Origin: an uncultured bacterium
GTDB lineage: Bacteria > Verrucomicrobiota > Kiritimatiellia > CAIKKV01 > CALHGX01
NCBI GenBank assembly: GCA_938031185.1
Contig: CALHGX010000009.1
Span: 1 to 64,000, forward strand
DNA length: 64,000 bases
Direction of reading: 5' to 3'
Within the stretch, counting starts at the first letter, position 1. The number at the start of each line of letters is the position of its first letter. The notes under the pieces were generated by a model, which was not told the DNA's origin, ran no database searches, and saw only the letters and a list, made by a program, of their open reading frames with translations. Made by a program: the position numbers and the translations under genes. Positions 47,933-58,427 of the stretch are shown here, one piece after another.

Positions 47933-49189
47933 GTGATCCACTCTCGCGCATTCATTTGCATCGGCGTTCTGGCTGCGGCGCCTTGGCTCATGGGCGACAT
48001 TGACCCGTCTGGCGGCCGGGCCGCGGAGTCGGTTTCGAACGATCTGACGGCCAAAGTCTCACCGGACATGGCGGTCATGTCCGCCGCACATAATGGTTTC
48101 GCGTTGGACCTCTACGAGCGAATACGTTCGGGCAAAGGTAATCTGGTGTGCTCCCCCATTAGCATCGCGGCCGCCCTGCATATGACCATGGCGGGAGCCC
48201 GGGGAGAGACTGAGCGGCAAATGGCTCGTGTGCTGCACGTCACCTGGGACAAACCGGAGGCAGCACCGATGTTCCCCCGGTGGTTGAGTCTGCACCGCAT
48301 TCGCCCCGGTTTCGGTGTTGAAATGCATGTCGCGAACTCCATTTGGACCCCGGTTGGATTTCCGTTGGTCCCTGATTTTTCCGCCACGCTTCGGGACGCC
48401 TACCTTGCCGAGGCATTTGAGGTGAATTTCGCGGAAGATCCCGAAGGAACGCGCCGCCGGATCAACGAGTGGACTGCGGCGCAAACTCACAACCGCGTTC
48501 CGGAGATTCTGGCCCCCGGGTTGCTCTCGGTCCGCGAGCGCCTGGTGCTGGTCAATGCCGTGTATTTCAAGGGATTGTGGAAGACCCCTTTCAACCCTGC
48601 TCAAACCACCAACCAGCCATTCCGCGTGGCTCCGGGCGAGACGGTGGAAGCGCCCGCCATGCGGCAAACCGGCACGTTTGGCTACTACGAAGATGATCGG
48701 GTGCAGATTCTTGAGGCCATGTTTTCGGATGAAAATCACGTAATGACCTTTCTCCTGCCCAAAGAGGGAGGCGATCTGTCTGGCATTGAAAGCAGCCTCC
48801 AACCGGACACCCTGTCGCTCTGGATCAACCGTCTCGAATCCCGAGAGGTTGTCGTCCAACTCCCCCGTTTTCGCGTGACTTCGCGCCTCGACTTGGTCCC
48901 CCCCCTGCAGGCGTTGGGCATGACAGTGCCTTTTTCCGAAGCGGCGGATTTTTCCGGCATGACAAAAGCCGCTTCGCTTTTCATCGGAGCGATCGTCCAT
49001 CAGGCATTCGTGGAGATGGATGAGCAAGGCGCTGAAGCGGCGGCCGCGACGGCCGTCATGATGCGGATGACCGCCATGGCGCCGCCTCCGCCGATTTTCC
49101 GCGCAGATCGTCCGTTTGTCTTTCTCATCAGGAATCGGCGCACAAACGCCATTCTGTTTGCGGGCCGCGTTTGGAACCCGCTCGGGTGA
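47933..49189 (+). CDS. Secreted serpin (serine protease inhibitor)
   Basis: A 418-residue protein with an N-terminal signal segment (AFICIGVLAAAPWLMGD) and the complete serpin fold: FALDLYERIRSGKGNLVCSP, SIAAALHMTMAGARGETERQ, VNAVYFKGLWKTPFN, VQLPRFRVTSRLDLVPPLQA and the late FRADRPFVFLIRNRRTNAIL. The reactive-centre hinge EQGAEAAAATAV has small residues at P12-P9, as in inhibitory serpins. Counting from the hinge gives Thr at P1 and Ala at P1', in a Met/Thr/Ala-rich loop; this would suit elastase-like or related proteases (estimate). Translation uses GTG at 47933 after ggcggagaa. It lies 33 bases before an NfeD-type protease gene. Confidence 0.93.
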   Translation: MIHSRAFICIGVLAAAPWLMGDIDPSGGRAAESVSNDLTAKVSPDMAVMSAAHNGFALDLYERIRSGKGNLVCSPISIAAALHMTMAGARGETERQMARVLHVTWDKPEAAPMFPRWLSLHRIRPGFGVEMHVANSIWTPVGFPLVPDFSATLRDAYLAEAFEVNFAEDPEGTRRRINEWTAAQTHNRVPEILAPGLLSVRERLVLVNAVYFKGLWKTPFNPAQTTNQPFRVAPGETVEAPAMRQTGTFGYYEDDRVQILEAMFSDENHVMTFLLPKEGGDLSGIESSLQPDTLSLWINRLESREVVVQLPRFRVTSRLDLVPPLQALGMTVPFSEAADFSGMTKAASLFIGAIVHQAFVEMDEQGAEAAAATAVMMRMTAMAPPPPIFRADRPFVFLIRNRRTNAILFAGRVWNPLG

Positions 49190-54197: not shown

Positions 54198-54836
54198 TTG
54201 CCTATTGCGATTCTTGCACACAGGGGGCTCTGGCAAAGGAAGAAGGCTAAAAATTCGCCGGCGGCTCTCCGCGAAGCCTTGAGGCTCGGGTTCGGAATCG
54301 AAACCGATATCCGGGACCAAGGGGGGCAATTGGTCATTTCCCATGATCCTCCCGCTGCCGCAGCGCCCCTTTTCAGGCCATTTTTGGAGGAATGGCTTCG
54401 CCACCCCGCCCTACGTCCGATCCTTGCCCTCAACATAAAAGCTGATGGACTGGGAATGCTTCTGCGCAGAGAAATGCAACAAGCTCGGGGAGAAGACTAT
54501 TTCGTTTTCGATATGTCGCCGCCGGAAATGCTCGTTTTTCTTCAGCAGGGATTCCCCGTGTACACCCGCCAGAGCGAATACGAACCAAAGCCGCTTCATT
54601 ACGACCGATGCCAAGGGGTATGGATGGACTCGTTCGACCAGGAATGGATCACCCCCAAACACATAGCGGCCCATGTGAAGCGGGGCAAGAAAGTGGCGCT
54701 TGTCTCGCCCGAGATCCATGGCCGCGATCCCCTTCCCCTCTGGAAACGGCTGAAGACCCTGAGCGAACCGATCATTAGCAGCGTCGCTTTGTGCACCGAC
54801 CGTCCCAAAGCCGCCAGAACATTTTTCCATGCCTAG
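54198..54836 (+). CDS. Glycerophosphodiester phosphodiesterase-like protein
   Basis: The 212-residue protein opens with ILAHRGLWQRKKAKNSPAAL, has GFGIETDIRDQGGQLVISHD (the HRG, ExD and HD metal/catalytic residues of the GDPD barrel) and WMDSFDQEWITP late. It is shorter than typical GDPD (about 250 residues). Hydrolysis of a glycerophospho-diester is the family reaction. It starts with TTG at 54198 behind gtggagggcagtc, and the HAD gene overlaps its end by 8 bases. It is the first gene of a compact five-gene cassette, in which a glycerol-type building block would make sense (inference). Confidence 0.8.
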   Translation: MPIAILAHRGLWQRKKAKNSPAALREALRLGFGIETDIRDQGGQLVISHDPPAAAAPLFRPFLEEWLRHPALRPILALNIKADGLGMLLRREMQQARGEDYFVFDMSPPEMLVFLQQGFPVYTRQSEYEPKPLHYDRCQGVWMDSFDQEWITPKHIAAHVKRGKKVALVSPEIHGRDPLPLWKRLKTLSEPIISSVALCTDRPKAARTFFHA

Positions 54837-55461
54837 GATACGCGCCATCATCTTCGATATGGACGGCGTTCTGATCGACGCCCGAGAGTGGCATTACAAG
54901 GCGCTTAATCGCGCCTTGGGGCTTTTTGGTTTCTCGATTGACCGATTCGATCACCTCGTCACCTATGACGGCCTGCCGACACGTAAAAAGCTCGAAATGC
55001 TCTCTTTGGATTCCGGCCTCCCACGCAAGCTCCACGGCCTCATCAATGATCTCAAACAGAAGTACACGCTGGAAATCGTCTATGGCGAATGCCGTCCGGT
55101 CTTTCGTCACCAGTACGCCTTAGCACGCTTGCGCGAAGAAGGCCGCCGGCTGGTGGTAGCCTCCAATTCGGTTCGCGCCACCGTGGATATGATGATGGAA
55201 CGAGCGGCGCTCGCGCCCTACCTTGAGTTTACGTTGAGCAATCAGGATGTGCAGAGGGCCAAACCAGACCCGGATATTTACCTGACGGCGCTGAAACGGT
55301 TGGCCCTCCCAGCTCCAGAATGCCTCGTCGTGGAAGATAATCCCCACGGTATCGCCGCAGCACAGGCGGCGGGGATACCGCTTTTGGCCATCCCGTCCCC
55401 CGACTACCTGAGCTATGAACGGATCGCCGCTCGAATTGTCGAGCTGGAGCAGGTTGTATGA
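54829..55461 (+). CDS. HAD-superfamily hydrolase
   Basis: A 210-residue HAD protein: motif I AIIFDMDGVLIDAREWHYKA with the DxD pair, a helical cap (YDGLPTRKKLEML), motif II LVVASNSVRATVDMMM, motif III lysine AKPDPDIYLTALKRL and motif IV CLVVEDNPHGIAAAQAAG. It is a small-molecule phosphatase or phosphomutase of the beta-PGM-like subgroup. The ATG lies inside the GDPD gene and its stop overlaps the next start (ATGA). In the cassette it could remove or move a phosphate before nucleotidyl transfer. Confidence 0.86.
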   Translation: MPRIRAIIFDMDGVLIDAREWHYKALNRALGLFGFSIDRFDHLVTYDGLPTRKKLEMLSLDSGLPRKLHGLINDLKQKYTLEIVYGECRPVFRHQYALARLREEGRRLVVASNSVRATVDMMMERAALAPYLEFTLSNQDVQRAKPDPDIYLTALKRLALPAPECLVVEDNPHGIAAAQAAGIPLLAIPSPDYLSYERIAARIVELEQVV

Positions 55462-56198
55462 AAATCGTTGTCCCAATGGCCGGGCCGGAAAAAGCCTTTC
55501 AGGAGGCTGGTTACCTTTTCTGCAAGAGCCTGATCGAAATACGAGGCGTGCCGATGATCGAGTGGGTTGTCGGAAGCCTGAAGGAATTGGCAACCGAGGC
55601 TCAGTTTGTGTTCGTCATCCTAAAGGAGCATGTCGTTCGACACCACCTGGACCACGTCCTGCACCTGCTGTGCCCCGGCTGCGCCGTGGTGATCGCCCAG
55701 GCGCCCACCGCCGGTGCGGCCTGCACCGCGCTGCTTGCCATGGAACACATGGCGGCCGACGAAGAACTGGTGATCACCAACGGCGATCAAATTATCCGAG
55801 CCCCGTTGCCCGCTATCGTCGGGCAATTCCGCCAACGCCAGCTCGACGCCGGCACCATCGTGTTCGACTCCGTCCATCCGCGCTGGTCGTTTGTTCGCGT
55901 GGACGAGAATGATCTTGTTCTGGAAGCCGCCGAGAAGCAGCCCATCAGCCGCCTCGCTACAACGGGATTCTACTATTTCCGCCGCGCAGAAGAATATGTG
56001 GCGGGCGCACAAGCCATGCTGCTCAAGGATGCCCACGTCAACGGCGCCTTCTATGTTTGCCCTGTTTTCAATGAACTGCTCCTTCGCCAAAAGCGTATCG
56101 GCATTCATCGGATACCGACTGATGCCTACATCTCCCTTGCCACGCCGCAAGGCCTGGCGCTGTTTGAACAACGCCTTGCCACGGAACAAGCCTCATGA
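55458..56198 (+). CDS. Nucleotidyltransferase-fold protein with degenerate nucleotide loop
   Basis: The 246-residue protein is a paralogue of the gene at 56527 (similar length and order). It begins KIVVPMAGPEKAFQEAGYLF, where a working nucleotidyltransferase has GxGxR; here the glycine-arginine signature is lost, while the following lysine (FCKSLIEIRG) is kept. GAACTALLAMEHMAADEELV and TNGDQI follow, so the metal-binding Asp and surrounding fold remain. It may bind rather than transfer nucleotides, or form a complex with its paralogue. Overlaps on both sides are 4 bases. Confidence 0.75.
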   Translation: MKIVVPMAGPEKAFQEAGYLFCKSLIEIRGVPMIEWVVGSLKELATEAQFVFVILKEHVVRHHLDHVLHLLCPGCAVVIAQAPTAGAACTALLAMEHMAADEELVITNGDQIIRAPLPAIVGQFRQRQLDAGTIVFDSVHPRWSFVRVDENDLVLEAAEKQPISRLATTGFYYFRRAEEYVAGAQAMLLKDAHVNGAFYVCPVFNELLLRQKRIGIHRIPTDAYISLATPQGLALFEQRLATEQAS

Positions 56199-56533
56199 AA
56201 ACGGCCAAGCTGTCCGACATGATCCGTGGCTGGTTTGTAGGCAATTTCGAGCCAACGGCCTATCGGACGACGAATGCGGAAGTAGCCGTCAAACGATACG
56301 CGGCCGGCACACGCGAGGAGGCGCATGTTCACCGCATCGCCACCGAGTTGACGGTCGTCGTCGAAGGCGCTATCGAAATGAACGGCGTTCGTTACACGGC
56401 GGGGGATATTGTCACGCTCGAGCCTGGAGAGCCTTCTGATTTTTACGCCGTCACCGACACGGTGAACGTGGTCGTTAAAATTCCTGCGGTGCCAGGCGAC
56501 AAGTACCCAATACAGGAGTGGCCCAAATGCTGA
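56195..56533 (+). CDS. Small cupin-domain protein in the activated-moiety cassette
   Basis: A 112-residue cupin: KRYAAGTREEAHVHRIATEL and TVVVEGAIEMNGVRYTAGDI, with the loop VTLEPGEPSDFYAVTDTVNV. The classical HxH pair is reduced to HVH, and the motif-2 histidine is replaced by SDF, so metal binding is uncertain. It overlaps the nucleotidyltransferase above by 4 bases and the next gene by 7 bases. Cupins in such operons often act on a sugar or acid precursor; here the substrate is unknown. Confidence 0.8.
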   Translation: MKTAKLSDMIRGWFVGNFEPTAYRTTNAEVAVKRYAAGTREEAHVHRIATELTVVVEGAIEMNGVRYTAGDIVTLEPGEPSDFYAVTDTVNVVVKIPAVPGDKYPIQEWPKC

Positions 56534-57282
56534 ACATTGTCGTCCCACTGGCCGGGCGCGGCAGCCGCTTCGTTCAAGCGGGCTATCGCGAACCCAAGCC
56601 GCTCATCCCGATTCACGGCAAACCGATGATCGAGTTGGTCGTGAACAACGTTCGTCCTCGTCGTCCCCACCGTTTCATTTTTCTTGCACTGGAAGACCAT
56701 CTGTCACAGTGGGAGCTTGCCGCCACACTCCACCGCATCGCCCCAAACTCGATCATAATTCCAGTCGCGGGCGTCACCGAGGGGGCCGCCTGCACGGTCC
56801 TGCTGGCTCGCGATTACATTGACAGCGATGCGCCGCTCATGACTGTCAACAGCGATCAATGGGTGGATGCCGATATCAATGCCTATCTGGCGGTCGCTGA
56901 CGAACCCGGGGTGGACGGGTTAATCATGACTATGTGGTCAAATCACCCGAAGTGGTCTTACGTTGGTTTTGACGCCGCCGGCCGTGTCACTTGTACGGCC
57001 GAAAAGGAGGTCATTTCCAATCAAGCGACGGTGGGCATCTATAACTTCAGGAGTGGACGGGATTTCGTCTGGGCGGCAGAGAAAATGATTCGCAAGAATA
57101 TCCGCGTCAACAACGAATTCTATGTTTGCCCGGTGTACAACCAACTGCTCCAACGAGGCGGCTGCATTAAGGTGTATGATGTAGGGCGAGAGGGAGACGG
57201 GATGTACGGCATGGGCATCCCGCAAGACCTCGAGGCGTTTCGAGCACACCCCGTCTCGCGAAAAGCGGCCGGATTGGCTTGA
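56527..57282 (+). CDS. Sugar-type nucleotidyltransferase
   Basis: A 251-residue nucleotidyltransferase with the full signature IVVPLAGRGSRFVQAGYREP and KPLIPIHGKPMIELVV (G-R-G-S-R...K), GVTEGAACTVLLARDYIDSD, metal-site VNSDQWVDADINAYL and VGIYNFRSGRDFVWAAEKMI. It would activate a phosphorylated compound with NTP. I chose the ATG at 56527 with acaggagtggccc upstream; a GTG at 56518 is the alternative. It is the last gene of the cassette and ends 30 bases before the convergent glycan operon. Substrate and nucleotide are unknown. Confidence 0.85.
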   Translation: MLNIVVPLAGRGSRFVQAGYREPKPLIPIHGKPMIELVVNNVRPRRPHRFIFLALEDHLSQWELAATLHRIAPNSIIIPVAGVTEGAACTVLLARDYIDSDAPLMTVNSDQWVDADINAYLAVADEPGVDGLIMTMWSNHPKWSYVGFDAAGRVTCTAEKEVISNQATVGIYNFRSGRDFVWAAEKMIRKNIRVNNEFYVCPVYNQLLQRGGCIKVYDVGREGDGMYGMGIPQDLEAFRAHPVSRKAAGLA

Positions 57283-57311: not shown

Positions 57312-58427
57312 TTAAGTCGCCAGATATTCAGGCGGCACCGGTTGTCCGGCCACCTGAGCTTGGAGAAGATCCAGCAATCGCTCGGGAGCGTATAGCGCCC
57401 GGACGGGTCCGCGCACGGCATCCGCCGCCATTTGGTAGGCGGAGTAAGCCTCCAAAGCCTTTTCATAAGCGGATTTGATGGCCTCTTCTCCGGCGTATGG
57501 CGCCACTTCAAACACGCAATCTCGAAGCAGCGGGAACTCACGCCCGGGCCGCCGACCGATCATCGGCACGCCCACCGCGGCGAATTCGAGAAACTTCGCG
57601 ATGGAGGCTCGATGCAACCCGCCCGTCGCAACGGCATACCGAGCGGTTGTGGCGGCGCGCAGCGTCTCCATCCCATACACCGGCGTTCGCCTGTGATCGA
57701 AGACGCGAAAGGGGTTCCCCTCATGGCGCAGCAAGGTGGTCACCAGACGCCGGCGATCTTCGTACAAATTGATAAAAGAAGCGTGTGTCGGGAAAAAGGG
57801 ATTTCTAATCCAAGCATACAAATAGGTTGTCCCCAAGTTGGCGAAATCGTGAAGCTTTATGGGGGGCGGTTCAATCGTTTCGGGAAGGTCCACACAAAAA
57901 GGAAGGTAGAGCAACGACCTTTTTGAGGGACGCCATCTTCTCCGCTGTCGCCACATGAGGGCCCCGCGAAAAGGAAGCAGCGGCAGGCACGCCAAACGCA
58001 GCGTCGTGTTCAGTAAAGCCCACTTCGTGGCCGTCTCGACGGGGCTCACGATCGGCACAGGCCCCTCCAGCACAACGCACCCTCCCCTCTGAATGGCTTC
58101 TATGGCGTGGTAGTGTCGGAATATCAGGTAATCGGCATTCGGCACCAACGGGGCAGACCACCAGTCGCAGAAACCCATGGAGAAATTACCTCGCGCCGCC
58201 AGTCGTCGGTAGAACCACCCTGGCAGAACGCCCGGAAAATCCAGCATGACATGCTTTCCGGTGGCGGCAACCTTCCGCCACAGCTCTTCCGCATAAGCAC
58301 TTCCTGCGCAAATGAGGGTTTCAACTCCGCGCCGTGTTAGCGCCGCGTGTAGTGCCCGCATCGGGGGAATGCTTTGCTTGGGATCGGGTGTAACCCACAG
58401 CCAATCGTGGATGTCAGAGCGATTCAT
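57312..58427 (-). CDS. Probable glycosyltransferase (GT-B-like)
   Basis: The 371-residue protein has LWVTPDPKQSIPPMRALHAA at the start, a YLIFRHYHAIEAIQRGGCVV segment and a C-terminal IAKFLEFAAVGVPMIGRRPG like the donor-sugar site of GT-B enzymes (K/E followed by GVP). No named family is clear. Its start overlaps the stop of the upstream glycosyltransferase (ATGA), so it belongs to the same minus-strand operon. It could add a sugar to the same polymer. Confidence 0.6.
   Translation of the reverse strand: MNRSDIHDWLWVTPDPKQSIPPMRALHAALTRRGVETLICAGSAYAEELWRKVAATGKHVMLDFPGVLPGWFYRRLAARGNFSMGFCDWWSAPLVPNADYLIFRHYHAIEAIQRGGCVVLEGPVPIVSPVETATKWALLNTTLRLACLPLLPFRGALMWRQRRRWRPSKRSLLYLPFCVDLPETIEPPPIKLHDFANLGTTYLYAWIRNPFFPTHASFINLYEDRRRLVTTLLRHEGNPFRVFDHRRTPVYGMETLRAATTARYAVATGGLHRASIAKFLEFAAVGVPMIGRRPGREFPLLRDCVFEVAPYAGEEAIKSAYEKALEAYSAYQMAADAVRGPVRALYAPERLLDLLQAQVAGQPVPPEYLAT

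Follow-up and report, generated by a model that had tools for sequence, protein, structure and literature searches.

A recurrent five-gene cassette as a possible mobile route to a nucleotide-activated sugar in bacteria and phages

Introduction

What do five overlapping genes make together when the set matches no named pathway? The question is raised by a cassette at positions 54198-57282 (+ strand) of a 64,000-nucleotide stretch of DNA (the window) from an uncultured bacterium of the Kiritimatiellia (assembly GCA_938031185.1, contig CALHGX010000009.1). The cassette encodes, in this order, a GDPD-like protein, a HAD enzyme, a first nucleotidyltransferase homologue (NT1), a cupin and a second nucleotidyltransferase (NT2), and its successive open reading frames (ORFs) overlap by 8, 4, 4 and 7 bases. 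A previous reading of the letters and ORFs (the sequence-only reading) had regarded the genes as a coherent set in which the GDPD releases a small compound, the HAD enzyme dephosphorylates it or moves its phosphate, and a nucleotidyltransferase activates it for a surface glycan, possibly as a glycerol derivative. It knew of no named pathway with this set, and our literature searches likewise found no paper describing the five genes (open-licence papers only; absence is no proof).

Here we report that the five-gene set is conserved as a unit, with its order only partly conserved, and we rate the cassette as a putative nucleotide-sugar route with unusual parts. As the best explanation of all observations taken together, we tentatively propose a horizontally mobile pathway whose predicted product is a nucleotide-activated sugar for surface glycans, a proposal to which we give slightly less than an even chance.

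Results

Recurrence of the five-gene set across bacteria

Scanning genomes with the HAD gene, we found 38 loci at 47-63% identity, after which identity fell to 37% or less; one further match at 47% (L080) was truncated by its contig end. These 38 loci, together with one genome of the same class and seven plasmids, gave a tally of 46 loci that were chosen by the HAD gene only. As evident from this tally, the other four families were almost always present: NT2 was found at all 46 loci, the GDPD-like gene at 45/46, the cupin at 42/46 and NT1 at 39/46, and the sole locus without a GDPD-like gene lay at a contig end. In a control set of 41 loci with HAD genes that are only similar, the other four families were all absent. 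A chance grouping of the five genes was rejected on the basis of these two results. A scan of the genome contigs with the GDPD-like protein alone confirmed no relatives, and the HAD bait succeeded instead. In a search of 388 genomes from the window's phylum with the GDPD-like gene, the close family turned up in three, including the window's own, and all five genes were present in 3/3.

According to the record titles, the carriers belong to Bacteroidota, Alpha-, Beta- and Gammaproteobacteria, Campylobacter, Bacillota, Gastranaerophilales and Planctomycetes. The divergence of the genes was correlated for all pairs (Mantel r 0.32-0.56, p 0.0005), and some correlation would also be given by the shared ancestry of the hosts. 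The gene order of the window was observed at 15 loci, while NT2 stood in front at 10 and before the cupin at 7. The GDPD-like and HAD genes were adjacent at nearly all loci, with the former usually overlapping or abutting the latter, and NT2 and the cupin shifted position. The coherence that the sequence-only reading had seen in the overlaps was thus borne out by the tally and the controls; the set recurs across phyla with neighbors that do not vary freely, but its order is not fixed and NT1 is missing at 7/46 loci. The five cassette genes have a G+C content of 0.56-0.59, compared with 0.61 for the window, which is a mild hint of foreign origin.

Phage versions of the cassette

Relatives of NT2 at approximately 50% identity were common in IMG/VR. 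The HAD family was found in all of the best 80 IMG/VR NT2 loci, and the gene conserved there encodes HAD and NT2 in one ORF of approximately 460 residues; the isolated Synechococcus phage S-8S56 has the same arrangement. In addition, a short GDPD-like protein of 140-180 residues, in most cases 140-170, lay near NT2 in 63/81 phage loci chosen by NT2. This short protein kept the H, R, N, ExD, HD and K residues, and profile comparison with the bacterial GDPD-like family showed a probability of 96.7%. The full-length GDPD profile had given weak matches of 20-28 bits in phages, which were first doubted and then found to represent this distinct short family. With the short protein as bait, NT2 was present in 75/80 loci and in 28/28 loci of at least 12 kb, and these 28 long loci contained the HAD family in 22 cases and the cupin in 8. 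Two viral contigs had the gene order of bacteria, with a full-length GDPD, HAD and NT2. In PHROGs, most phage families of the cassette are listed as having unknown function.

Some of the phage loci that lacked the HAD family contained an RpiB-type isomerase fused to a nucleotidyltransferase (PF02502, 9.5e-30), a PfkB-like kinase and a KdsC-like HAD. Other substitutes were a PF03332 phosphomannomutase-type enzyme (one phage locus) and a HAD-IIIB-type domain fused to a nucleotidyltransferase. These substitutes are plausible alternative ways to a sugar-1-phosphate. Because the GDPD-like protein was kept with NT2 whichever front end the phages use, it is probably not the enzyme of the first step, and the releasing first step that the sequence-only reading had assigned to it is less well supported.

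The KdsC-like HAD, PfkB-like kinase, NT-RpiB fusion and cupin were observed together in phage Bellamy (L133, 3788-6466) and in three further loci (L253, 5345-8444; L270; L250), and the viral contigs with this set also had the short GDPD-like protein. The set resembles a complete route of isomerization, phosphorylation, dephosphorylation and activation, perhaps leading to an activated pentose.

Features of NT1 and NT2

NT2 matched PF00483 with 45 bits compared with a cut-off of 21.2, and the Pfam matches of NT1 were narrowly above their cut-offs (26.6 vs 21.2 and 28.4 vs 27 bits). NT1 and NT2 are paralogues with 35% identity, and their sequences split into two clean clades with a support of 1.0. 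In NT2, residues G10, G12, R14, K24, D110, E159 and K160 were invariant among 47 sequences, and the GxGxR, PK, D and EK motifs were intact. In NT1, the second glycine and the arginine of the GxGxR loop were lost in nearly all of 40 sequences, the lysine was kept in 30/40 and the aspartate in 33/40. Loss of this triphosphate-binding loop makes two active nucleotidyltransferases unlikely, and judging from the motifs the cassette probably has a single working nucleotidyltransferase, NT2.

The AlphaFold2 model of NT2 matched 4EVW, RmlA, GalU and GlmU, which have the sugar-1-phosphate nucleotidyltransferase fold, and 4JD0, an inositol-1-phosphate cytidylyltransferase, was also among the fold matches. 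Of the solved structures, PDB entry 4EVW is closest to both NT1 and NT2; this structural-genomics entry for a nucleoside-diphosphate-sugar pyrophosphorylase of V. cholerae RC9 showed approximately 23% identity in the structural alignment, and no paper characterizing it was found. In Rhizobium and Azospirillum, NT1-NT2 forms one ORF, and we infer, as the simplest reading, that a catalytic domain is paired here with a degenerate partner. A third, still more degenerate nucleotidyltransferase follows the NT1-NT2 fusion in Rhizobium tumorigenes (L127, 10742-12993) and Azospirillum ramasamyi (L128, 10627-12872), and the cupin was not found at these two loci. In the plasmid records, NT1 or NT2 is annotated as a glycosyltransferase family 2 (GT2) protein.

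Features of the HAD enzyme, the GDPD-like protein and the cupin

The HAD enzyme matched the Pfam family HAD_2 above its cut-off (2.7e-30). Upon alignment of 47 HAD sequences with a verified beta-phosphoglucomutase (bPGM) reference, we found the equivalents of bPGM D8, D10, H20, S114, K145, E169 and D170 to be invariant. A role as sugar phosphomutase is more likely for the HAD enzyme than dephosphorylation, mainly because its phage replacements represent other plausible routes to a sugar-1-phosphate, and also because these bPGM residues were retained in all 47 sequences. The sequence-only reading had allowed both activities; moving of the phosphate is now favored, and dephosphorylation is less well supported.

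The GDPD-like protein of the window had no Pfam or NCBIfam match and did not reach the gathering score of PF03009; a relative with 44% identity scored 18.4 bits with this family, compared with a cut-off of 23.6. Its AlphaFold2 model (mean pLDDT of 96) matched solved GDPDs in Foldseek with a probability of 1.00, and the best matches were mostly GDPDs or GDPD-type phospholipase D with query-normalized TM values of 0.62-0.74. Among 31 GDPD-like sequences, H8, R9, G10, E35, D37, H49, N79 and K81 were invariant, and the catalytic HRG (H8-R9-G10), ExD (E35-x-D37) and second His (H49) of GDPDs were all kept. The profile databases returned no match, yet the model and the invariant catalytic residues are those of GDPDs; judged by its model, the protein is therefore a member of an uncharacterized GDPD-fold family. 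No signal peptide was evident by eye.

The cupin scored 24.1 bits with Cupin_2 (PF07883), below the cut-off of 27.2, and the metal ligands of its first motif (HxH and E; H44, H46 and E51) were at least 95% conserved. The family labels of the sequence-only reading were retained for the HAD enzyme, NT1 and NT2 by Pfam cut-offs and for the GDPD by fold; the cupin label fell short of its cut-off, but the ligands were kept.

Glycan context and gene neighborhood

Among the neighbors of the cassette, WavE-type proteins, glycosyltransferases, nucleotide-sugar epimerases and ABC exporters were the most frequent. WavE accompanies it in Scandinavium, Buttiauxella, Citrobacter and two Pseudomonas plasmids, together with glycosyltransferase-like proteins and an ABC exporter. 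These loci had few or no other evident precursor enzymes beside the cassette, which suggests that its product serves there as a principal building block and not as a minor decoration. The surface-glycan setting and the activation end of the sequence-only reading were upheld by these neighbors and by the intact NT2 motifs.

WavE as an obligatory partner was rejected, as only approximately one third of the loci have it and none was found beside the window cassette. A search for WavE in 289 genomes of the same phylum found none, a weak result as the control of the search was unmatched too. CDP-glycerol glycerophosphotransferase was missing from both lists of the 25 commonest neighbor families (from sets of 103 and 116 proteins), which omit rarer families. 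E. coli genomes were searched with the Citrobacter GDPD-HAD DNA for a strain of known O-antigen structure, and no match was found.

The features of the window are summarized in Table 1. The cassette ends 29 bases from the stop of a convergent glycan operon.

Table 1. Cassette genes in the window and the adjoining gene of the convergent operon
Feature	Position	Strand	Length	Remarks
GDPD-like phosphodiesterase	54198..54836	+	212 aa	ORF with TTG start; uncharacterized GDPD-fold family (by model)
HAD enzyme, beta-phosphoglucomutase-like subfamily	54829..55461	+	210 aa	Probable sugar phosphomutase
NT1, degenerate nucleotidyltransferase paralogue	55458..56198	+	246 aa	Probable NT2 partner
Cupin, small, single-domain, auxiliary	56195..56533	+	112 aa	Metal ligands kept
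NT2, nucleotidyltransferase	56527..57282	+	251 aa	Catalytic residues intact; ATG start; listed ORF opens with GTG at 56518
First gene of convergent glycan operon	57312..58427	-		No Pfam/NCBIfam match; context only

A second type of cluster was observed in three same-phylum genomes (L038, L039 and L040) and on the E. coli plasmid NZ_CP145712.1 (L130, 6022-13224), where a nucleotidyltransferase is accompanied by another GDPD-like subfamily, GT2 and GtrA. Its variable extra members include a ribulose-phosphate 3-epimerase-GtrA fusion, a 2H-phosphoesterase-like protein, a class II aldolase and a tandem nucleotidyltransferase fusion.

In R. tumorigenes (L127, 4644-8493), the cassette adjoins genes of glycerol-3-phosphate dehydrogenase, triose-phosphate isomerase and RpiB, which look like a sugar-alcohol catabolic operon, possibly by coincidence. 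A Legionella sainthelensi plasmid (L129, 6684-10839) shows another association of a nucleotidyltransferase with WavE, in a run of consecutive genes for a kinase-like protein, a short HAD, an NT2 relative and two WavE proteins. Upstream of the cassette in the window, the translation of an ORF at 47933-49189 resembles a serpin-type protease inhibitor and seems to carry a signal sequence (both judged by eye).

Discussion

The analysis establishes that the genes are associated and in places fused, which folds are predicted, which catalytic residues are conserved, and that other gene sets can take the place of HAD; the reaction steps are inferred from this. In the proposed pathway, the HAD enzyme would act as a phosphomutase and move phosphate to give a sugar-1-phosphate, NT2 would join this to a nucleotide, and NT1, as a degenerate paralogue, would pair with or regulate NT2. 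The small cupin may have an auxiliary role as a metal protein and could be an isomerase. The GDPD-like enzyme would be a phosphodiesterase that acts at or after nucleotide-sugar formation, and we prefer a role in which phosphodiester or 1,2-cyclic-phosphate by-products would be hydrolyzed back to sugar-1-phosphate. Enzymes of the PI-PLC/GDPD superfamily can act on cyclic phosphates, and some nucleotide sugars, namely donors with a cis 2-hydroxyl, decay to 1,2-cyclic sugar phosphates. The 2H-phosphoesterase-like gene (PF13563) beside the second type of cluster in L040 fits such a role and proves nothing. The most far-reaching form of this idea, a pan-bacterial and phage route in which a GDPD-fold enzyme would open 1,2-cyclic sugar phosphates and thereby allow an otherwise unstable nucleotide sugar to be made and recycled, appears unlikely to us at present.

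Pathways that combine a phosphomutase with a nucleotidyltransferase are well known, such as phosphoglucomutase with GalU and ManB with ManC. As in these pathways, the mutase of the cassette would make the sugar-1-phosphate and an RmlA/GalU-fold enzyme, here NT2, would activate it, two steps that the phage HAD-NT2 fusion would couple. In contrast to these pathways, the putative mutase is a bPGM-like HAD, which is conserved together with a GDPD-like protein, a cupin and a second, degenerate nucleotidyltransferase. Heptose-type routes use an isomerase, a PfkB kinase, a HAD phosphatase and a nucleotidyltransferase, and the phage variant with RpiB, PfkB-like kinase, KdsC-like HAD and nucleotidyltransferase follows the same logic; it differs in its isomerase family and in the additional GDPD-like protein and cupin, whereas the window cassette contains neither isomerase nor kinase.

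Several observations weigh against a phosphomutase-based sugar pathway. The HAD enzyme scored 81 bits with the NCBIfam bPGM equivalog TIGR01990, well below the cut-off of 189.4, and most of its motifs are common to phosphatases too. In addition, bPGM Thr16 is replaced by Ala, and the cap-domain alignment was ambiguous, with no confident placement of the equivalents of bPGM Arg49 and Lys76. The PfkB-like kinase of the phage variant was weakly matched (PF00294, 5.9e-5, below the cut-off, in phage Bellamy; no confident match in the others). As for the GDPD-like protein, the third metal ligand of classical GDPDs is the Glu of an ExK motif, and N79-x-K81 presumably occupies its site, with Asn79 in place of Glu. 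Finally, the cyclic-phosphate role suggested for this protein is drawn from general knowledge of the PI-PLC/GDPD superfamily.

One alternative keeps the GDPD-like enzyme at the start, where it would release glycerol-3-phosphate or another phosphomonoester from a glycerophosphodiester; the HAD enzyme would then move or trim the phosphate, and NT2 would activate a glycerol-like or other non-sugar compound, giving for example a CDP-glycerol isomer. The kept HRG, ExD and His of the GDPD fold, the position of the GDPD-like gene directly before HAD at nearly all loci and the presence of 4JD0 among the NT2 fold matches are consistent with this alternative, and the CDP-glycerol and CDP-2-glycerol capsule pathways likewise activate a small phosphorylated compound by a nucleotidyltransferase. 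However, we know of no GDPD in those routes. The phage GDPD-like protein and NT2 stay paired when HAD is replaced by RpiB, kinase and phosphatase or by a phosphomannomutase-type enzyme, routes that would require no releasing step, the HAD enzyme is similar to sugar mutases, and CDP-glycerol glycerophosphotransferase is not among the commonest neighbor families. We therefore consider this alternative improbable, and the glycerol derivative suggested by the sequence-only reading is kept only as part of it.

A second alternative, to which we give a similarly low probability, agrees with the proposed pathway up to the nucleotide sugar but has the GDPD-like enzyme later cut a phosphodiester in the glycan or a lipid-linked intermediate, thus tailoring or editing polymer assembly. 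It would account for a GDPD that stays with NT2 whatever the front end and for the second GDPD-like subfamily beside nucleotidyltransferase, GT2 and GtrA genes, but the short phage protein, mostly of 140-170 residues, seems small for polymer processing, and the window protein, with no evident signal peptide, would have to act in the cytoplasm. A third reading, in which a HAD phosphatase and the four other genes form a loose glycan-decoration toolbox without a common pathway, is very unlikely: the variable order, the occasional lack of NT1 or cupin and the motifs shared with HAD phosphatases are outweighed by the near-perfect co-occurrence, the 0/41 controls, the fusions and the reciprocal bait results.

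The proposed nucleotide-sugar pathway would mean that a probable sugar-activation route is common to many bacterial groups and to many phages from environmental samples, in genes now annotated as hypothetical, as GT2 or as of unknown function. The phage versions suggest that phages use the cassette to alter glycans. Identification of the product would probably reveal an overlooked surface sugar or modification together with a new role of the GDPD fold; if cyclic-phosphate opening is true, it would be a repair role for this fold in sugar activation.

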